Assembly (NCBI GenBank): GCA_017625535.1 | Contig: JAGAKR010000016.1 | Coordinates: 1-40,746, forward strand | Direction: 5' to 3' | DNA length: 40,746 nucleotides | DNA from: Bacteroidales bacterium | Lineage (GTDB): Bacteria; Bacteroidota; Bacteroidia; Bacteroidales; UBA932 | In this document: positions 12,087 to 20,989 of the stretch, one piece after another | How the letters are laid out: each line of letters begins with the position of its first letter | Numbering within the stretch: the stretch's first letter is position 1 | Made by a program: the position numbers and the translations under genes | The notes under the pieces: generated by a model | The model's database searches: none | The model's input: the letters and a program-made list of their open reading frames with translations, nothing else | Told to the model about the DNA's origin: nothing

Positions 12087-13514
12087 ATGAAAAAACTATT
12101 TGTTCTGGCAATGGGTATCATTATGATGCAAGGGTGTGGAAACGGAGCGCAGACTCCTCCCCCAAGTGAAGAGTACTATGATGCTGTAGTAAAAGAACTC
12201 TCTTCTGAAAAATATTACGGCAGAAGCAATTACAACAACGGAACCATAAAGGCTGCGGAATATATCATTGGACAACTGCAGGAACTGGGAGTTGGCCCTG
12301 TACCTGCAGAAATTATTGAAAAATCCTGGGCAGGGAAACAGAAACCTGAACTCCACAGCCTCCAGCCAGAATTCAAGAGCCTCATAACACCTTGTGATGC
12401 AAGGCGCTGGAGCAATGGCACACCGGAGCAATTGGCCTATATGCAGCACTACAACTTCCCATTGAATGCCCAGAGGGGCCCTGTGGAACTAGCAGTAGAC
12501 GGCAAGCCTCTCCGCCACACAATAGACTACACACTTAAGGAATTCTCCCCTTCATTTGAGGGTGAACTGGAGGTATATTATCTTCCCGACGAATATATCC
12601 ATCCCGACAAATTCAACAAATTCCTCTCTTCACGCGATTTCAGCAAGAAGGCAGTTGTGATTGACTGGGATCTGTTCTGCAGCAGGATGTTCACCTATAA
12701 AGGGATAGAGGTTTACAAGACATACTTTGTGCCTCAGAAGAATGTTGGGGCACTTATCTGCAGGAGCAGCGAACTCCTCCCTTACTTCAAGAGCCGCAAC
12801 CACTTCAACACCCCTATGCCTGTTTTCATAACAGACAACTCATTCCCTATGGATGCCAAGAAGGTATCAATAAAATGCTCCTCTGAAATGATAGACAATG
12901 ATGCCCACAACATCATTGCGTGGATTCCAGGTACAAAAAATCCTGAGAAACACTTCATTATGGCAAGCCATTATGACCACCTGGGCATCTGCGGTGACCA
13001 GATTTTCTACGGTGCAAACGACAACTCGTCGGGAACAGCAATGCTCCTTAACTTAATGAGGCATTACAAACTCAACCCGCCTGAGCATTCAATAATGTTC
13101 ATCTTCTTTGATGCGGAGGAGAACAACCTGCTTGGTTCATTCTTCTATGCAGACAATCCTGTACTGCCGTTGGAGAACATAGAGTTCTTTATGGAACTTG
13201 ATATGATTGGAGACAACGGAAACAACATCAACTGCCAGATTGCAGACAATGCAGAACCGGCACTGGAGTATCTGAACAAGATAAACGGCGGTATGGAGAA
13301 TCCTTTTGCAGAACTTATCCGCAATCCGCTTGATGATTATGCAGACCATTATCCGTTTGCCCTTAAAGGTGTACAGAGTATGTATATGGAGACAGACGGC
13401 GATACCAACAAGAACTACCACTCACCAAGAGACACTTACGAAAACTATTACAGTACAAACTACAACAGAATATTCACTCTTGTAACTGAATTCCTGGATG
13501 GTTACAGGAGATAG
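12087..13514 (+). CDS. M28-family metallopeptidase lipoprotein
   Basis: A 475-residue exported zinc peptidase. A signal with lipobox MQGC (Cys17) predicts lipid anchoring. The C-terminal half (about 270-475) is the M28 domain with the co-catalytic zinc ligands in order: His in MASHYDHLG, bridging Asp in GANDNSSG, the Glu-Glu pair in FFDAEENN, Asp in MELDMIGD and a final His in NYHSPRDT. The N-terminal part probably forms a PA-like or capping region. The family removes N-terminal amino acids from peptides. It may feed the amino-acid oxidation genes near 32-37 kb. A 111-bp palindromic element begins 17 nt after its stop codon. Confidence 0.92.
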   Translation: MKKLFVLAMGIIMMQGCGNGAQTPPPSEEYYDAVVKELSSEKYYGRSNYNNGTIKAAEYIIGQLQELGVGPVPAEIIEKSWAGKQKPELHSLQPEFKSLITPCDARRWSNGTPEQLAYMQHYNFPLNAQRGPVELAVDGKPLRHTIDYTLKEFSPSFEGELEVYYLPDEYIHPDKFNKFLSSRDFSKKAVVIDWDLFCSRMFTYKGIEVYKTYFVPQKNVGALICRSSELLPYFKSRNHFNTPMPVFITDNSFPMDAKKVSIKCSSEMIDNDAHNIIAWIPGTKNPEKHFIMASHYDHLGICGDQIFYGANDNSSGTAMLLNLMRHYKLNPPEHSIMFIFFDAEENNLLGSFFYADNPVLPLENIEFFMELDMIGDNGNNINCQIADNAEPALEYLNKINGGMENPFAELIRNPLDDYADHYPFALKGVQSMYMETDGDTNKNYHSPRDTYENYYSTNYNRIFTLVTEFLDGYRR

Positions 13515-13699: not shown

Positions 13700-14470
13700 A
13701 TGGACAGAAGAAGTATGTTGAAGAAAAGTGGTGCTGCAGTATTGGGCGCCTCAATTTTAGGAGTTGACGCTTTCGCATCATCACCAGCCGGAGCAGAGAA
13801 CCCGGCAACTGCAGGAAAAGCGGCAGGGAAAAAAGCAATGATAATAGGTGCCCATCCCGACGACCCTGAAACAGGATGCGGCGGAACAATGGCAGCACTG
13901 AAAGATGCCGGTTGGGAAGTTGTATGCGTATATATGACAAAAGGAGAAGCCGGAATACCGGGCAAAACCCACGATGAAGCGGCACAGATAAGGAAAGCCG
14001 AGGCAACCGAAGCCTGCAAGGTGTTTGGGGTGAGGCCAATATTCATGACCCAGATAGACGGCAGTTCAGAGATAAACAAAGAGCGCTACGATGAAATGAA
14101 ACATCTCATAGACTCCGAAAAACCAGACATAGTCCTTACCCACTGGCCTATAGACTCACACAGGGACCACAGGAACTGCTCCTGCCTTGTGTACGATGCC
14201 TGGAGATACCTTGGCTATCCGTTTGAACTCTTCTACTTTGAGGTAATGAGCGGAATGCAGAGCCAGTTGTTCCACCCAACAGACTATGTGGACATCTCTA
14301 AATATACACAGATAAAACGTGATGCCTCATTCTGCCACAAGAGCCAGGACCCTGAAGGGTGGTACGACAAATGGCACGGGGGAATGCAGACCTTCCGCGG
14401 AATGGAAAGCAACTGCGCCGCTGCAGAAGCCTTCATCCACCTGAGAAGAAGCGGCGGAGATATACTGTAA
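13700..14470 (+). CDS. PIG-L/LmbE-family deacetylase with Tat-like signal
   Basis: A 256-residue zinc-dependent N-deacetylase-like protein. The N-terminus MDRRSMLKKSGAAVLGASILG is a twin-arginine type signal, so folded export is likely. The metal site is complete: AHPDDPE (H52, D54, D55) and THWPIDSHRDH (H148, D152, H154, D156, H157). Relatives deacetylate N-acetylglucosaminyl conjugates (GlcNAc-PI, mycothiol/bacillithiol precursors), but bacterial family members have varied amide substrates. The gene stands between the 111-bp palindrome and a terminator, and is not in an obvious operon. The ATG at 13700 is the only one that retains the signal. Confidence 0.9.
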   Translation: MDRRSMLKKSGAAVLGASILGVDAFASSPAGAENPATAGKAAGKKAMIIGAHPDDPETGCGGTMAALKDAGWEVVCVYMTKGEAGIPGKTHDEAAQIRKAEATEACKVFGVRPIFMTQIDGSSEINKERYDEMKHLIDSEKPDIVLTHWPIDSHRDHRNCSCLVYDAWRYLGYPFELFYFEVMSGMQSQLFHPTDYVDISKYTQIKRDASFCHKSQDPEGWYDKWHGGMQTFRGMESNCAAAEAFIHLRRSGGDIL

Positions 14471-14474
14471 AGAA

Positions 14475-14506
14475 AAATGCCCCTTTTGAGGGGCATTTCT
14501 TTTTAT
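14475..14506. terminator. Bidirectional terminator, PIG-L gene / ppa operon
   Basis: AAATGCCCC (14475-14483) pairs with GGGGCATTT (14490-14498), loop TTTTGA, followed by CTTTTTATT. The A-rich left side lets it end the leftward operon too. Confidence 0.85.
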
Positions 14507-15135
14507 TATTTCAATGTAGGGGCAATCAGATCATCATAATCTTCCAGAGATCTCTGGATAACATCCCTTGCCACATCCGGTCCATAAATTGAAATGAACT
14601 GCATACGGCTTGTATGCTCGCCTGGAATATCCTTGTATGTGCTGAAATAGTGGATAAGACGGCGTATGATGTCAATAGGAACCTGGTCAATATCTGTCAT
14701 ATGGCCATAAACGGCATCACTCCTGAGCACTGCAATGATCTTGTCATCTGCCTGGTTGTGGTCGAGAAGTCTCAAACCGCCAATAGGACGTGCATTTACA
14801 ATAATGTCTCCGTGTGTAACATCCTTCTCTGTAAGGATACATATATCAAGCGGATCACCGTCACCCTCCACATCTGTCCTTACCAACGCCTTATTTGTAA
14901 GTTCTGCCATTTTAGGTCCGCAATAACTCTTTGGAAGGAAGCCATAAAGAGACGGAACAATGTTTGAAAATTTCTGAGGCCTGTCCAATGAAAGGTATCC
15001 CGATTCCTTGTCTACCTCATACTTTACTGTATCAGTAGGGACAATCTCAATGAAAGCCCTTACAACTTCTGGAAAACACTCTCCTTGACTGATTCCGTGC
15101 CACGGATGAGCCTTGTACATTTTATTAGCATTCAT
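14506..15135 (-). CDS. ppa: Family I inorganic pyrophosphatase
   Basis: A 209-residue soluble pyrophosphatase that hydrolyses PPi to two phosphates with Mg2+. The signature DGDPLDICIL (the D-x-D-P-x-D active-site strand) follows VRTDVEG, and the later conserved Asp/Lys/Tyr residues occur in HNQADDKIIAV and IHYFSTYKDIPGE. It is slightly longer than the E. coli enzyme (about 175), as is common in Bacteroidetes. The gene is last in the leftward run of the acyl carrier protein, acyl ligase and condensation-domain genes, 60 bp after the carrier protein gene, with no terminator between. PPi removal would pull the AMP-forming ligase forward. Confidence 0.93.
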   Translation of the reverse strand: MNANKMYKAHPWHGISQGECFPEVVRAFIEIVPTDTVKYEVDKESGYLSLDRPQKFSNIVPSLYGFLPKSYCGPKMAELTNKALVRTDVEGDGDPLDICILTEKDVTHGDIIVNARPIGGLRLLDHNQADDKIIAVLRSDAVYGHMTDIDQVPIDIIRRLIHYFSTYKDIPGEHTSRMQFISIYGPDVARDVIQRSLEDYDDLIAPTLK

Positions 15136-15195
15136 AACGGGAACAAATTTAGGAATAAATCCTTTTCGTTATCATCAAAAAATGGAAAACTTCAA

Positions 15196-15432
15196 CTATG
15201 CGGCAATACGTTTCTCTATATACCCTATCATCTCATCTGCAGTTTTCAGCCCCATAAGGTCCCTGTTTGGAATGGAAATCCCAAAATGGTCTTCAAGTGC
15301 CCCAACCAGTTCCATAAGCATAAATGAATCCACTCCCGATGCCGCCTTGAAAGGGACATCTGTAACAACCTCCTCTACCGGAAAATCCACATAATCCTGC
15401 AGGATACCCAAAAATTCTTTCTTTACATCCAT
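15196..15432 (-). CDS. Acyl/peptidyl carrier protein
   Basis: A 78-residue acidic four-helix carrier protein. Ser36 in SGVDSFMLMELVGAL is the 4'-phosphopantetheine attachment site (D-S-x-x-x-M/V-E-L pattern), and DHFGISIPNRDL is the usual helix III region. It is not the housekeeping AcpP, which has a DSLD motif and lies with fatty-acid genes; here the Ser is followed by Phe. It starts 7 bp after the acyl ligase stop, so it very likely carries the acyl or aminoacyl group that this ligase activates, for delivery to the condensation-domain protein. Confidence 0.92.
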   Translation of the reverse strand: MDVKKEFLGILQDYVDFPVEEVVTDVPFKAASGVDSFMLMELVGALEDHFGISIPNRDLMGLKTADEMIGYIEKRIAA

Positions 15433-15439
15433 ATCAATA

Positions 15440-17164
15440 CTACATCAACAATATACCCTCACCCGAGCAATTCTGCGGAAGATTCTTTCTTATTATCTTT
15501 TTGGAAGAAGTCTTCCGGTACTCTGATAAAGGGAGTTCTACATACTCAATCCTTTTATAATCGGGAAGAAGGGCATTTATCCTCTCCATATCAGCCTCTA
15601 TGGCCCTGCGGTTTCCCCTCTCCTGTTCATCCTTTATAAATATGCCTGCACAGATTACGCTGCGTGAAACATTGCCCACCTTCAGTTCTGCCTGATAAAC
15701 TGCAATCTCATCTGCATACCCCATATTGGTTTCAATTACATTTTCTATCTCCTCCGGACACACATTCTTTCCATTCTCCAGCACTATGGTGTTCTTTTTC
15801 CTGCCCACCAGGAATATCCTCCCCTTTGAATCAATCCTTGCACTGTCTCCGGTATTGAAGAATCCCTCCTCATCAAACACAGCGGCAGTGGCTTCGGGAT
15901 CTTTATAATACTCCTTGAACACACTTTTACCCTTCACACACAAATCCCCTATGCCGTCCGCATCCGGCGATGCAATCTTCACCTGCAGGCCCGGGCAAGG
16001 TTTGCCCACGCTCAGATGCTCAGACAAAGTGTCTCCGTTTATGGAGATAAGCGGTCCGCATTCTGTAATGCCATAGCCGTTCTCCATACGCACACCAAGG
16101 TCATTCATCCCCTTTATCACAACCGGATTGAGCATTGAACCGCCGCATACAATCATATTCAGATTGCCCCCAAACGGTACAAACAGGTCTGCAAACATCT
16201 TATGGGTGCGGTCAATGCCTATCTTGCGGAGCATATTGCTCAGTTTTATTCCCTTCTGCAACTTCTCCTCCATGCCAGCCTTCTTTACCCCTGCCTGTAT
16301 ATTCCTGTAAAATGCATTGGCAATCATAGGGACAACTGTTATCAAGTGAGGCTTGAAAACCTTCATATTCTTCATAAGGTTGCGCATATTGCCGTTCACA
16401 TAGGTGAGCCTTCCGCTCCCTATACGGGTCATAATGTGGGTGTTTATCTCAGTTGCGTGATGCATTGGGAGCACACTCATGGAGGTGGTATCGCCGGCTG
16501 TCATAATGGAATCCATACAATTCACCATATTTGCAGCCAGATTGGCATTTGTAAGGACAACTCCCTTGTTGGCACCGGTTGTGCCGCTGGTAAAGAGAAT
16601 CTTTGCAGGGGCATCCAGATCCAGTTCCACATTCCTGTACTCCCCATCCAAAGTTTTCCCCTTCCCGACAATTTCCTCATAAGACGGGTACCCTGCAACT
16701 TTTCTGTCAAGTGTAATGATCTTCTTCAGGCGGGGACAGCACTGCTGCATCTGCTCCATAAGTTCCACCAGGTCTGCACCGCACAACACTGCATCCGCAT
16801 CACTCTTCTGCAGCAGGGTTGCCATAAGATTGTCGGGAGAATTCACATCTACCGGTACAACAACCCCCACTCCGCTGGAAATTGAAATGTCTGCAATCAC
16901 ATAGCGGCAGCAGTTCTCCGAAACAATGGCAATATGGGCACCTTTGAGCCCCTCTGCAACAAGCCCTTCACCCAGAGCCATCACTTCATTGTATATGTTT
17001 TGTGCCGTATATTCAACCATATTGTTCCCGGCATCAAGTTCTGCCAGGAGCACCTTCTGGGGAATCATTCTGTTTATCCTCCCAAGCATCTCCCTTATGC
17101 TGCGGTAATCCCCCTCCTTAAGGAGAAAATTCTTGTGGAATTCCCTCTCTGTCTTATATTTCAT
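15440..17164 (-). CDS. AMP-forming acyl-CoA/acyl-ACP ligase (ANL superfamily)
   Basis: A 574-residue adenylating enzyme. The core motifs are intact: P-loop-like ILFTSGTTGANKG (189-201), ENGYGITECGP (361-371), NTGDSARID (437-445), GRKKNTIVLENGKN (454-467) and the catalytic C-terminal lysine in KTSSKKIIRKNLP. The overall layout is that of fatty-acyl ligases rather than amino-acid A domains (inference; the pocket was not modelled). The ATG at 17164 is used because the longer frame (to 17281) would overlap the upstream gene by 100 nt. The gene follows the condensation-domain gene by 17 bp and precedes the carrier protein gene by 7 bp, suggesting loading of the carrier protein rather than CoA. Confidence 0.9.
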   Translation of the reverse strand: MKYKTEREFHKNFLLKEGDYRSIREMLGRINRMIPQKVLLAELDAGNNMVEYTAQNIYNEVMALGEGLVAEGLKGAHIAIVSENCCRYVIADISISSGVGVVVPVDVNSPDNLMATLLQKSDADAVLCGADLVELMEQMQQCCPRLKKIITLDRKVAGYPSYEEIVGKGKTLDGEYRNVELDLDAPAKILFTSGTTGANKGVVLTNANLAANMVNCMDSIMTAGDTTSMSVLPMHHATEINTHIMTRIGSGRLTYVNGNMRNLMKNMKVFKPHLITVVPMIANAFYRNIQAGVKKAGMEEKLQKGIKLSNMLRKIGIDRTHKMFADLFVPFGGNLNMIVCGGSMLNPVVIKGMNDLGVRMENGYGITECGPLISINGDTLSEHLSVGKPCPGLQVKIASPDADGIGDLCVKGKSVFKEYYKDPEATAAVFDEEGFFNTGDSARIDSKGRIFLVGRKKNTIVLENGKNVCPEEIENVIETNMGYADEIAVYQAELKVGNVSRSVICAGIFIKDEQERGNRRAIEADMERINALLPDYKRIEYVELPLSEYRKTSSKKIIRKNLPQNCSGEGILLM

Positions 17165-17181
17165 AATCTTGTCTCCAAATT

Positions 17182-18537
17182 TTAAAACAACTCCTCCAAT
17201 GCCTTGTGTGGAGAATCCAATACGCTTTCCACAACACGGATGTATGTATTCTGGAAATCTATCAACTGCTCTGCAGTGCACATTTTTGTCTGCACATCGT
17301 AAATTGCGTGTATCTCATTGCTGCGCAAATCGTGCATAAGGGCAATGTAGGCCGGCAAGGCCCCTTTGCCGTTGGAATGTATCTGCATTGTAACCCCCTC
17401 CGGCATCATTACAGGTATGAACGAGAATGAGAAGTTGGTTATCTGGCTCATCATTGAGTAGTTCCACAACTTGTGCTCAATATCCTGAATCTCAAGGTAA
17501 GAGAGTTTTGTATGCCTGTACAGTTCATTCTGGTCTTCAAAGAGTTCCGCAATGTTTTCGCTGAATGTCTTTTTATAATCCACTGTAGTGTACACGCTCA
17601 AACTCTGTACTTTTGTTCCGGCCGCCTTACGGTCTGCCACAGTTGCCCTGCAGTTGAGCAGTTCCAGAGGCAACTGGTACGGAGCCCTGTTGTTCCTCAA
17701 TGAACAGGAAATGGCACAAGTATAGAAAAAGAACGTGTTCATTGATATGCCGTTCTCATTGCACCACTCTTGAGCCCTCCCTGTAACACTTGCCGGAATT
17801 ACGAACTTGTACCCTTTTGTATCACATTTCACAAAGAAATAAGGCAATGCAAAAGCCCCTTTCTTCTTCAGTTTCATCCATCTGTCACTGGAAGTGCCGT
17901 GCACTCCGCAATACTCCGGATGCTGCTGATGACGCACATTATAGTAATCATTGAAAAACTCCCTGTCCTTTTCAAGGGCCTGGGCATTGTTCCTGTATTG
18001 TGTGTCTTTCTTGAGTATCTCTTCAAACTGTGCCGGTTCCGGTGGAAGAGGATCCCCTTTCAGAAGGGAATCATATACGTCAAAAAGGTCGTTCACCAAT
18101 ACACCTATACCGTATGAATCTGCAACCATATGGCTTATTTTAACAAAAATACGCTCCTGGCCGTCCGGCCCCGAAACAAATGCAACATTCAGGGTTTCAC
18201 CTTTTAGAATGGCAAGGGGTTTCCTGCGGAATTTGAGGATGAACTTCTCCAGTTGCCCGGATGTTCCAACCAGATGTTCAGGAATCTCACCCAAAGGGGC
18301 CTTATCCCTGAAATACTGCAGCATCTCCCCCTTTTCCTTTACAAACTTGAGCCTCAGGCAGTCATTCCTCTCCACAAGAAGGGCAAATGCCTTGCGCATC
18401 TGCACACGGTTGAATCCCTCCTCTACGGTAATGGAGAAAACAATGTTGGCCACACGCTTGAATAAAGAGAATTTTGTCTGGAGGTTTACTATATCCTGTG
18501 AGTAATTGAATCCGTATCTGACTGTTTCCATAATCAT
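17182..18537 (-). CDS. Stand-alone condensation-domain-like acyltransferase
   Basis: A 451-residue protein of the chloramphenicol acetyltransferase-like fold used by NRPS condensation domains and related acyltransferases. The active-site HHxxxDG motif appears as S135-H136-M-V-A-D140-S141 (ISHMVADSYG): the catalytic second His and the structural Asp remain, the first His and the Gly are replaced. The second half carries an N-terminal-like repeat and the region GISMNTFFFYTCAISCSL. There is no attached adenylation or carrier domain. Its ATG overlaps the stop of the exported TPR-like gene (ATGA), so the two are coupled. It could join the carrier-bound acyl group to an amine or alcohol; the product is unknown. 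Confidence 0.82.
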   Translation of the reverse strand: MIMETVRYGFNYSQDIVNLQTKFSLFKRVANIVFSITVEEGFNRVQMRKAFALLVERNDCLRLKFVKEKGEMLQYFRDKAPLGEIPEHLVGTSGQLEKFILKFRRKPLAILKGETLNVAFVSGPDGQERIFVKISHMVADSYGIGVLVNDLFDVYDSLLKGDPLPPEPAQFEEILKKDTQYRNNAQALEKDREFFNDYYNVRHQQHPEYCGVHGTSSDRWMKLKKKGAFALPYFFVKCDTKGYKFVIPASVTGRAQEWCNENGISMNTFFFYTCAISCSLRNNRAPYQLPLELLNCRATVADRKAAGTKVQSLSVYTTVDYKKTFSENIAELFEDQNELYRHTKLSYLEIQDIEHKLWNYSMMSQITNFSFSFIPVMMPEGVTMQIHSNGKGALPAYIALMHDLRSNEIHAIYDVQTKMCTAEQLIDFQNTYIRVVESVLDSPHKALEELF

Positions 18538-19382
18538 TGCTTCATTTTTCCAGAGAACTCTTCAAGTGCCTTGTAATCCTTTTTATCTACTGGGGTAAGG
18601 TCTTTGCTGGAGTTGTAGAGTCCTTTGGCATAACTTACAATCAGTGCCGCCTCCTCTTTGTCTGACATCTGCACAAACGGCTTTATGCTCCAAGGCATAT
18701 ATGTCTGCGCTCCGTCAAAATAGGAGTACTTCTGAATGTTTGAGTCGTGCTGTTTCTTGAACTCCACACCATTTTCAGCTGCAGCAGCCATACGCTTGCG
18801 GGCACTCCATCCCCTCTCATAAAGGATTTGTGCAAGATATGTGTATGTAGAGATTCTAAGTTCACCTGCAGGGATACATACCGCAGCCTTGCGGGCATAG
18901 TTTATTGCACTCTCCTTTGATTTGAACGGATGATGGTAATACAGTTCAGAAAGTGCCTGCCACGCCTCAGAGTACTCTGTGTTTCCAAAACGGTCCAATA
19001 TTGCAGTAAGGTCTTTTGTCATAACCGGCACAGCTGCAGCCTGGTCCATTATTGAATATGTCTGGCATTTGCGCCCCACATTTGCACAGTGCCACATATA
19101 GCACTCCTTGCTGCTTGAATCTTCCTCAAGCCCCTTTTCAGCCCATTCAATGCCCCTGTTGAAATGTTCCCTCTTCTCCTCTTTTGTCTGGGCCTGTTCT
19201 CCCATCATCAGGGATGCTCTGGCAAGACGCCAGCAGACTTCCGCCTTCTCCCTGCCCGGGAATGCAGTCTCAAGCATAACAACAAGTGTATCGTGATTGG
19301 CCTTGTAGTCACACTTATACCTGAAATCCCTGTCTACAGAGATAAAACTTATCAATATTGCCACTGCAAATAATAGCTTCAT
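18534..19382 (-). CDS. Exported TPR-like helical repeat protein
   Basis: A 282-residue protein starting MKLLFAVAILISFISV, a signal peptide or N-terminal anchor. The rest is alpha-helical with TPR-like pairs, for example EVCWRLARASLMMGEQ, HFNRGIEWAEKGLEED, YSEAWQALSELYYHHPFKSKESAINYARKA and RISTYTYLAQILYERG. The order W-R-L-A-R-A ... G-I-E-W-A-E-K-G-L resembles the RMD-type TPR family. It is the first gene of the leftward acyl ligase/carrier operon and overlaps the condensation-domain gene by 4 nt. A scaffold or acceptor on the far side of the membrane is a possibility; it may also link the pathway to the cell envelope. Confidence 0.78.
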   Translation of the reverse strand: MKLLFAVAILISFISVDRDFRYKCDYKANHDTLVVMLETAFPGREKAEVCWRLARASLMMGEQAQTKEEKREHFNRGIEWAEKGLEEDSSSKECYMWHCANVGRKCQTYSIMDQAAAVPVMTKDLTAILDRFGNTEYSEAWQALSELYYHHPFKSKESAINYARKAAVCIPAGELRISTYTYLAQILYERGWSARKRMAAAAENGVEFKKQHDSNIQKYSYFDGAQTYMPWSIKPFVQMSDKEEAALIVSYAKGLYNSSKDLTPVDKKDYKALEEFSGKMKQ

Positions 19383-19398
19383 AAGTCCAATTTTAGGT

Positions 19399-19415
19399 AA
19401 AAGTAGTTACTTTTG
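19399..19415. promoter_or_regulatory. Palindromic divergent promoter region
   Basis: AAAAGTA-GT-TACTTTT (19399-19414) contains back-to-back -7 elements: TACTTTTG on the plus strand (19408-19415) and TACTTTTA on the minus strand. Direct GTCCAA words at 19386, 19416 and 19434 flank it and could be a regulator site. It serves the M28 gene to the right and the TPR/condensation operon to the left. Confidence 0.5.
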
Positions 19416-19444
19416 TCCAAAATACTAATATGTGTCCAAAAATT

Positions 19445-20989
19445 ATGAAAAAAATCACTTTAGTAATTGCAGCAATCGCAGTTTCGGTTTCTGCAATGTT
19501 TGCCCAGACACGCTTGTCTGATGAGACTGCCTACAAAGTGAAGGCAGAGGGCTTTTCAAACTCACAGATTGAGCAGATTGCACAGTTCATGACAGATGAA
19601 CTTGGTCCGCGCCTTGCCGCTTCCCAGATGAAAGTGAGGTCTGAGCAGATGGTAGTTGAAAAACTTAAGGAAATGGGATTCCAGAATGCAAGGATAGAGT
19701 TTGCTTACGATTTCCCTAAAGGAGGCTGGGACAACCAGATGAACTATGTGGCAATGACAGCCCCTTATTACTGCAGTTTTGCTGCAAACCCAAAAGCCTG
19801 GAGCGGAAGTACAGACGGACTTGTAAAAGGTGAGTGTGTTGTACTTGAAGCAAACACAAAAGAGGATCTTGAAAAATATAAAGGCAAACTTGCCGGCAAG
19901 ATTGTTCTTATGCCTGCAACCCAGACATACGAGATGAGCTTTGAGCCACTTGCAACCAGATATACCCAGGAGCAGTTGGATGAAATGGAGAAAGATCCGC
20001 GTCCAAGGGCAATGAGACGCAGGATAAGCGGCGGCAACTGGCTTGCAGCAAGAGAATTGCAGCAGGCAATGGCACAGATGCTCAAAGACGAGAAAGTTCT
20101 TGCAGTAGTAAGCGGTGGCGGCACATTCAATGTACCTTCTTCACGCGGTGTACAGTACAAGGTGGGCGATCCTGAGCCTACACCAGAGATTGTACTCCCA
20201 ATAGAGGACCACGGCCGTATGGCAAGAATGATTGCAAACGGTACAAAAGTGGAGATGGAACTGAACATTAAGAATGTCTTCACCAACAACCAGAAGATAA
20301 ACAACGTAGTTGCCGAGATTCCGGGTACAGACCCTAAACTCAAGAATGAAGTTATCCTCCTTGGTGCACACCTCGACTCTTGGCACGGCGGTACAGGCGG
20401 AGCAGACAACGCATCAGGCTGTATTGTTATGATGGAGGCATTGCGCATAATCAAAGAGATGGGCATCCAGCCTAAACGTACCATCAGAATTGCCCTTTGG
20501 GGCGGTGAGGAGCAGGGCCTTTACGGCTCAAGAGGCTATGCAGAGAACTACCTGTTCGATTCAAAGAAAGGCAAAGTGCTTCCTGGTTATGAGAACTTTG
20601 CACTTTACCTGAATATGGACAACGGTTCAGGCCGTTTCCGCGGAATCTACCTTGAGGAGAATGATATGGCTGTTCCATTCTTCAAAACCTGGATGGAGCC
20701 TATTGAGTCACTCGGTTTCACAACCCTTACACTCCGCAAGACCAGCGGTACAGACCACTTGTCATTCACCCGCTTTGGCCTTCCTGCATACCAGTTCATC
20801 CAGGATGAACTTGAGTACGACCGCACTTACCACACTGTAATGGATACCTTTGAGCGTCTTTCACTTTCAGACCTCCAGGTAGATGCAGTAATGGTTGCAT
20901 GGCTTGCCCTCAACGCAGCAATGGATTCAGAGAGAATCCCTGTACTCCCAGGCTACCCTGAGAAAGCAAAACAGCAGCAAAGAAGATAA
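19445..20989 (+). CDS. Exported M28-family aminopeptidase with PA-like insert
   Basis: A 514-residue zinc peptidase with signal peptide MKKITLVIAAIAVSVSAMFAQ. Residues about 125-270 hold a protease-associated-like region (KGKLAGKIVLMPA, LAVVSGGG). The M28 domain follows with all zinc ligands: GAHLDSWHGGTGGADNASG (His and bridging Asp), WGGEEQGLYGS (Glu-Glu), LNMDNGSG (Asp) and YHTVMDT (final His). Family members act as aminopeptidases or carboxypeptidases. The start at 19445 is preferred to the ATG at 19430, which lies only about 8 nt after the predicted transcription start and would put MCPKI before the signal. A terminator built from two TCGGGAA words follows. Confidence 0.92.
   Translation: MKKITLVIAAIAVSVSAMFAQTRLSDETAYKVKAEGFSNSQIEQIAQFMTDELGPRLAASQMKVRSEQMVVEKLKEMGFQNARIEFAYDFPKGGWDNQMNYVAMTAPYYCSFAANPKAWSGSTDGLVKGECVVLEANTKEDLEKYKGKLAGKIVLMPATQTYEMSFEPLATRYTQEQLDEMEKDPRPRAMRRRISGGNWLAARELQQAMAQMLKDEKVLAVVSGGGTFNVPSSRGVQYKVGDPEPTPEIVLPIEDHGRMARMIANGTKVEMELNIKNVFTNNQKINNVVAEIPGTDPKLKNEVILLGAHLDSWHGGTGGADNASGCIVMMEALRIIKEMGIQPKRTIRIALWGGEEQGLYGSRGYAENYLFDSKKGKVLPGYENFALYLNMDNGSGRFRGIYLEENDMAVPFFKTWMEPIESLGFTTLTLRKTSGTDHLSFTRFGLPAYQFIQDELEYDRTYHTVMDTFERLSLSDLQVDAVMVAWLALNAAMDSERIPVLPGYPEKAKQQQRR

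Follow-up and report, generated by a model that had tools for sequence, protein, structure and literature searches.

What kind of machine is encoded when a condensation protein, an adenylating ligase and a carrier protein, normally thought of as parts of one module, lie side by side as separate genes in a genome of the Bacteroidales? The question is raised by contig JAGAKR010000016.1 of assembly GCA_017625535.1, from a member of lineage UBA932. The stretch of 40,746 nucleotides analysed here (the window) is the entire contig 10 of this genome of 2.18 Mb, which comprises 31 contigs and is 88.6% complete. An earlier description made from the letters of the DNA alone (the sequence-only reading) had recognized in it five leftward genes for an exported TPR-like protein, a stand-alone condensation (C) protein, an AMP-forming acyl ligase (A), a free acyl carrier protein (ACP) and an inorganic pyrophosphatase, and had proposed them as a candidate new conjugation pathway. 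Our results indicate that the first four genes are a conserved cassette that probably encodes an N-acyl-amide synthase, i.e. a fatty acid amide (FAA) machine resembling the CTA systems of gut Clostridia, and that the pyrophosphatase does not belong to it.

A conserved cassette of four genes

A profile search for the C protein matched 19 of 398 genomes from the same family, its own genome included, distributed among five of 25 genera. The 19 relatives considered below are the family matches besides its own genome plus L006, a metagenome-assembled genome of the Bacteroidales from roe deer rectum, and with the window they give 20 sets of cassette proteins. In 18 of the 19 relatives carrying the C gene, the genes for the exported protein, C, A and ACP are found in one order and on one strand, within ca. 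4.0–4.2 kb. The remaining relative, G1099, is split, with C and ACP at L076 6606-8190 and the ligase at L095 6652-8376; a gene for a LytTR regulator is also present at L076, and an HD-domain gene follows that of the ACP. Identity to the window proteins ranges across the relatives from 49 to 63% for C and from 56 to 70% for A. There are near copies among these relatives (L077/L078; L021/L066/L067), and their number does not equal that of independent events. The conserved unit is four genes: exported protein, C, A and ACP. The five-gene order that was to be sought in relatives thus held for its first four members and failed for the pyrophosphatase (see below).

The condensation protein groups with OaaC

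Among all solved chains, the best relative of the C-protein profile was OaaC (12kh_A), matched over its full length with an E value of 1.4e-30, followed by chains of PvdL, matched over ca. 145 residues at 2e-17. PDB entry 12KH is OaaC of Coprococcus eutactus, a free-standing C protein from an FAA pathway that also has a free ligase and a free ACP, and for which the synthesis of fatty acid amides in vitro is reported (PMC13142362). In a pairwise comparison, the window protein and OaaC show 21% identity over 439 aa (E 4e-23).

We built a careful tree with 10 of the 20 cassette C proteins, OaaC and 22 rows of C domains from non-ribosomal peptide synthetases (NRPS). A crude frame rule served to excise these rows from their loci, 32 in all; stop codons in that frame disqualified 13, L033 was left unused and three plasmid rows were added to reach the final 22. 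OaaC joined the cassette proteins with values of 99 (bootstrap) and 98 (Shimodaira-Hasegawa-like approximate likelihood ratio test, SH-aLRT), and the same join received an SH-aLRT of 97.9 in a quick tree containing all 20 cassette proteins. Approximately unbiased (AU) tests rejected two alternatives, one placing OaaC next to row L045 (p 0.0008) and one grouping it with both L045 and L007 (p 0.0099); the two rows were picked after the first tree was seen. With OaaC left out, the cassette proteins have L045 and L007 beside them, supported by a starred branch. Row L045, with the motif HHIIMDG, is a Bacillus C domain located behind dacB; we take it to be the starter domain of plipastatin/fengycin synthesis, and presumably both it and PvdL class as starter condensation domains. 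The placement beside L045 and L007 agrees with the published statement that the C domains of FAA systems lie nearest to starter domains (PMC13142362).

The same grouping was seen in individual residues. We defined as cassette-typical those residues that 18 or more of the 20 cassette proteins retain and that no more than 25% of the NRPS rows have. OaaC shares 27 of 99 such residues, as compared to 17 of 100 for L045, the best of the 22 NRPS rows, and 4 to 14 for the others. Judged against this one FAA reference, and with the long branches involved, it is likely that the cassette C proteins and OaaC form a common branch.

The altered active-site motif SHMVADS that the sequence-only reading had pointed out is indeed present in the window protein. 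All 20 cassette C proteins keep its second residue, His, and its Asp, and the first residue is Ser in 19 of them and Cys in the other one. At the last position we found Thr in 16, Ser in two, Asp in one and Leu in one, and never Gly, so that the motif is mostly SHxxxDT. For FAA domains the motif is given as (D/H)HxxxDS, with the second His in more than 99% and the last position occupied by Ser (42%), Ala (36%) or Gly (17%) (PMC13142362). The odd motif had been taken as a hint of an unusual acceptor; this is in line with a predicted place of the cassette proteins, with a motif variant of their own, among C proteins whose acceptors are free small molecules.

Ligase, carrier and a possible reaction scheme

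The ligase scored 190 bits against a model for long-chain acyl-CoA ligases (cut-off 476) and 118 bits against a model for amino-acid adenylation (cut-off 317). Its top NCBIfam models are acyl-CoA ligases, all of them far below their cut-offs, and these scores make an acyl acid a likelier putative substrate than an amino acid. Among solved chains, the ligase comes closest to luciferases, a succinylbenzoate ligase and 4-coumarate ligase. Key residues are well conserved: the P-loop motif is found in 20 of 20 ligases, NGYGITE in 19 of 20, and the C-terminal lysine of the KK/RK-[IV]-x-R motif in all 20. Likewise, the attachment Ser of the ACP is present in 20 of 20 proteins, within DSF (18) or NSF (2).

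The sequence-only reading had noted that neither a thioesterase nor a phosphopantetheinyl transferase (PPTase) was in sight. A thioesterase is not expected, because in FAA systems it is the free amine that releases the acyl chain (PMC13142362); as to the PPTase, a gene of this family is present elsewhere in the genome, on contig 11.

A plausible scheme would start with the ligase, which would activate a carboxylic acid with ATP and load it onto the phosphopantetheine arm of the free ACP; by analogy with OaaA, this acid would most likely be a fatty acid. The ACP would then deliver the acyl group to the C protein, which, if it works like OaaC, would transfer it to a free small amine, and the same acyl transfer would release the product with no need for a thioesterase. 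More speculatively, the exported TPR-like protein might act in the periplasm on the product, on the fatty acid or in an envelope response.

The exported protein and a LytTR regulator

The product of the first gene matched the RMD1-3 family just below the cut-off (26.1 bits, cut-off 26.7), and Pfam RMD1-3 was found in two of six aligned exported proteins. A profile of these proteins gave a weak match (E 2.6e-6) to 7cc7, 'Regulator of microtubule dynamics protein 3', which we take to be the TPR domain of PTPIP51. This domain has been reported to bind and transfer phospholipids (PMC9239997, PMC11881430). The exported protein was matched in 20 of the 398 family genomes: in 18 it adjoins C, in G987 a contig end cuts it off, and the last match is in G1146. 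In this genome (L121 6282-12786), a relative with 40% identity heads a row of genes for HlyD, an AcrB-type resistance-nodulation-division (RND) pump and outer-membrane efflux proteins, and not C-A-ACP. The match to 7cc7 and the relative in the efflux row suggest, as a guess, a role in lipid handling or export at the envelope.

A divergent gene for a LytTR regulator lies beside the cassette in 13 of the 19 relatives (e.g. L006 5648-6439). The LytTR domain was present in all seven of these 13 regulators that were scanned with Pfam, and the N-terminal part appears, as judged by eye, to be membrane-bound. The regulator gene is missing from the window and, as far as the retrieved stretches reach, from six relatives; in two of the six, L023 and L074, the contig ends within 0.9 kb in that direction. 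Among genomes lacking the regulator at the cassette, G000 and G026 gave no match anywhere in the genome at E 1e-10, and G044, G080, G964, G1094 and G1019 gave a match elsewhere, which may be a paralogue.

The pyrophosphatase and the insertion site

All five genes are encoded on the minus strand with gaps of -4, 17, 7 and 60 bp in reading order, and both their coordinates and their family matches (Table 1) agree with the earlier description. For the ligase we chose an ATG start over a longer GTG open reading frame (ORF) reaching position 17281; the later of the two starts is close to where six aligned ligases begin.

Table 1. Features of the cassette and its direct neighbours in the window.
Feature	Position	Strand	Basis or remark
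Exported TPR/RMD-like protein, first cassette gene, 282 aa	18534..19382	-	Probably periplasmic; signal peptide by eye
Free-standing condensation (C) protein, 451 aa, OaaC-like	17182..18537	-	Condensation PF00668 2.4e-23; profile match to OaaC; tree
Active-site motif SHMVADS (His136, Asp140) of C protein	18115..18135	-	Motif alignment of 20 cassette C proteins
AMP-forming acyl ligase (A), 574 aa	15440..17164	-	AMP-binding PF00501 6.8e-54
Free acyl carrier protein (ACP), 78 aa	15196..15432	-	PP-binding PF00550 2.2e-14
Inorganic pyrophosphatase, 209 aa, resident neighbour outside cassette	14506..15135	-	NF001886 296.9 bits, cut-off 247
Inserted stretch, outer limits	15181..19431	.	Blastn against empty site of G942
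M28 peptidase, resident neighbour across insertion	19430..20989	+	Family match

A tblastn search with the pyrophosphatase at E 0.01 retrieved no match in the stretches of the 19 relatives. At the cut-offs used, the pyrophosphatase was matched in 10 and the M28 peptidase in seven of 39 genomes of the genus, its own included. In four of these (G942, G1037, G978 and G999), none of which is among the 19 genomes matching C, the two genes adjoin each other in divergent orientation, their extrapolated starts 100–124 bp apart, and in the window the cassette sits exactly between them. Blastn similarity to G942 stops at window position 15180 and restarts at 19432, and by eye the likeness on the right-hand side begins at ca. 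19399. The adjacency of the pyrophosphatase to the cassette is most simply explained by insertion, given its position right next to the M28 gene in four cassette-free genomes; the simplest history would be the insertion of one block of ca. 4.2 kb between two resident genes, and loss from the four other genomes is also possible. On these grounds we rejected the pyrophosphatase as a member of the pathway and, hence, its proposed role as a conserved part of the operon.

No integrase gene adjoins the cassette among the genes scanned. Base composition was tried as a sign of foreign origin and gave no signal, with 46.0% GC in the cassette and 45.6% in the window. Between the cassette and the M28 gene there is a near-palindrome, AAAAGTAGTTACTTTTG, at window 19399-19415, which we take to resemble a back-to-back pair of Bacteroidetes-type -7 elements (TAnnTTTG). 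A like sequence is present in the empty site of G942, and a resident promoter may thus serve the cassette. A promoter scan returned 10 hits against 8.5 expected and carries no weight, and Rfam gave no match in the window at gathering scores. As to other genes, a second M28-family peptidase at window 12087-13514 brackets the region together with the copy in Table 1, and a PIG-L deacetylase, with a likeness to BshB1 below the cut-off, is encoded at 13700-14470.

Distribution outside the family

At the level of the order, a search with the single C protein matched 12 of 393 genomes, its own included, the other 11 being partial matches with E values from 1e-7 to 8e-4. At the level of the phylum, using a profile with OaaC, we retrieved 35 of 395 genomes, again with its own included; the other 34 matches were partial (best E 3e-20 to 6e-9) and nearly all of them lie inside open frames of more than 900 aa, mostly NRPS-like, with two shorter ones in G810 (557 aa) and G852 (458 aa). 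Among plasmids, tblastn with the window C protein gave no match and OaaC matched eight records; of the three inspected, one has its match within an NRPS gene of the annotation and two lack any annotated feature at that position. Scans of IMG/VR with the C alignment or with OaaC did not retrieve any relative. Our literature search returned no report of such a system in Bacteroidales, and the string 'Bacteroid' is absent from the main text of PMC13142362.

Comparison with known systems

The operon layout of a free C protein, A and ACP without thioesterase is that published for FAA systems (PMC13142362, PMC13060934), and in the window and 18 of the 19 relatives we found free-standing C, A and ACP encoded together, also without thioesterase. 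The Oaa system of C. eutactus (OaaA, OaaACP and OaaC) resembles the cassette in its free ligase, ACP and C protein, in the joint branch that the tree gives for the C proteins of both and in an altered HHxxxDG motif in which the second His and the Asp are kept. The two differ in their motifs, DHxxxDS in Oaa and S/C-H-xxx-D followed mostly by Thr in the cassette, as well as in the low identity of their C proteins. Unlike Oaa, the cassette has an extra gene for an exported TPR-like protein, a Bacteroidales host and, in the 13 relatives mentioned above, a divergent LytTR gene.

The CTA operons of Lachnospiraceae, such as that of Blautia wexlerae, are likewise described as three-gene acyl-amine machines with a C protein, a carrier and a ligase, and in every isolate in which they were found the carrier occupies the middle position, flanked by C and A (PMC13060934), whereas the order in the cassette is C-A-ACP. 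The survey in that paper reports no CTA homologue outside Clostridia among 7,781 isolate genomes, with 70% identity across 80% of the protein required for a match (PMC13060934); the pair formed by the window C protein and OaaC would fall below this cut-off. Starter condensation domains, such as those of PvdL and L045, were next nearest to the cassette C protein in both profile search and tree. They are parts of large NRPS proteins and use a carrier-bound acceptor, and the cassette C protein stands alone.

We also examined a possible origin in flexirubin, aryl polyene or lipoate synthesis, which had been named as a way to refute the proposal. Pfam found no ketosynthase, dehydratase, ammonia-lyase or lipoate gene among the 27 window ORFs that were scanned, the cassette and its direct neighbours included; the neighbour genes of the relatives were compared with each other and are mostly unnamed.

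Function of the cassette and alternative explanations

Together, these comparisons give good support to the earlier proposal that the genes encode the separate parts of a single NRPS-like module for acyl conjugation, for which an N-acyl amine is one of the candidate products. Calling it a new conjugation pathway was too strong, given that its layout and likely chemistry match those of the Oaa and CTA systems of gut Clostridia. In our best reading, the cassette is a Bacteroidales variant that works like the FAA machines; it is a variant rather than a plain member because neither the first motif residue nor the C-T-A gene order of the FAA family is found in it, and it is not a new kind of pathway. 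What is novel is the host, the gene order, the motif and the partner genes.

Several observations weigh against this assignment. The first motif residue is Ser or Cys instead of Asp or His, the terminal Ser is limited to two of the 20 cassette proteins, and the gene order is not that of the CTA operons. When the cassette proteins are left out of the tree, OaaC is nearest by path to L045 and L007, with no starred branch. The comparison was made with one characterised FAA C protein, with ca. 21% identity, and both OaaC and the cassette clade are long branches, whose join may be false according to the warning of the tree tool. Besides, the sequence fixes neither the acyl nor the amine substrate, and the comparison with Oaa is based on the C protein.

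A conjugating machine of the same layout could, for instance, use a donor other than a free fatty acid (e.g. an aryl or a short acid), or an acceptor such as a lipid head group or an envelope amine, and thereby make a structural lipid instead of a diffusible amide. The ligase leaves room for this, as it has no specific family match and its nearest solved chains include those of luciferases and of succinylbenzoate and 4-coumarate ligases; the departure from the OaaC motif and the exported first gene, which points to the envelope, go in the same direction. We consider it rather unlikely, in view of the grouping of the C protein with OaaC, which uses fatty acyl groups, near a Bacillus row that is presumably a starter domain, and of an occurrence in 19 of 398 family genomes, which is ill-suited to a core membrane lipid.

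The cassette could also be the functionless remains of a larger NRPS, as might be read from a C domain without partner domains, from its low identity to known C domains and from the ligase at another locus in G1099. This is very unlikely for full-length genes with intact key residues, which keep their order in five genera, and for a C motif that is intact in 20 proteins; moreover, free-standing C proteins of such type are described as a known working class (PMC13142362). Scarcely credible, finally, is the five-gene operon in which the pyrophosphatase would drive adenylation. Its location 60 bp downstream on the same strand speaks for it, and co-transcription in this strain is possible, but as a conserved feature it is refuted by its absence from the 19 relative stretches and by its M28 neighbour in G942, G1037, G978 and G999.

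Biological significance

For the FAAs of gut Clostridia, action on the human receptors GPR119 and GPR132 has been reported (PMC13142362, PMC13060934), and in Blautia the synthesis of acyl amines has been connected with survival when free fatty acids are present, with products that act on GPR119 (PMC13060934). By analogy, either role, fatty acid survival or signalling of the GPR119 type, could apply to the cassette described here. As a tentative possibility, a Gram-negative branch of the host-active FAA systems might exist in the Bacteroidales, in which synthesis in the cytoplasm would be coupled to a periplasmic, lipid-binding TPR protein. This protein would ferry either the fatty acid or the finished product across the envelope, and the system would in many cases be controlled by a LytTR sensor in the membrane; it would spread as a 4.2-kb cassette and serve fatty acid tolerance, host signalling or both.

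In the literature that we consulted, FAA operons have so far been described from Clostridia. A Bacteroidales version would widen the range of gut bacteria to be tested for such lipids, and, being distant, it would offer a far comparison for how C proteins choose free amines. It would also add two candidate partners, the exported TPR protein and the LytTR regulator, to the three genes already described.

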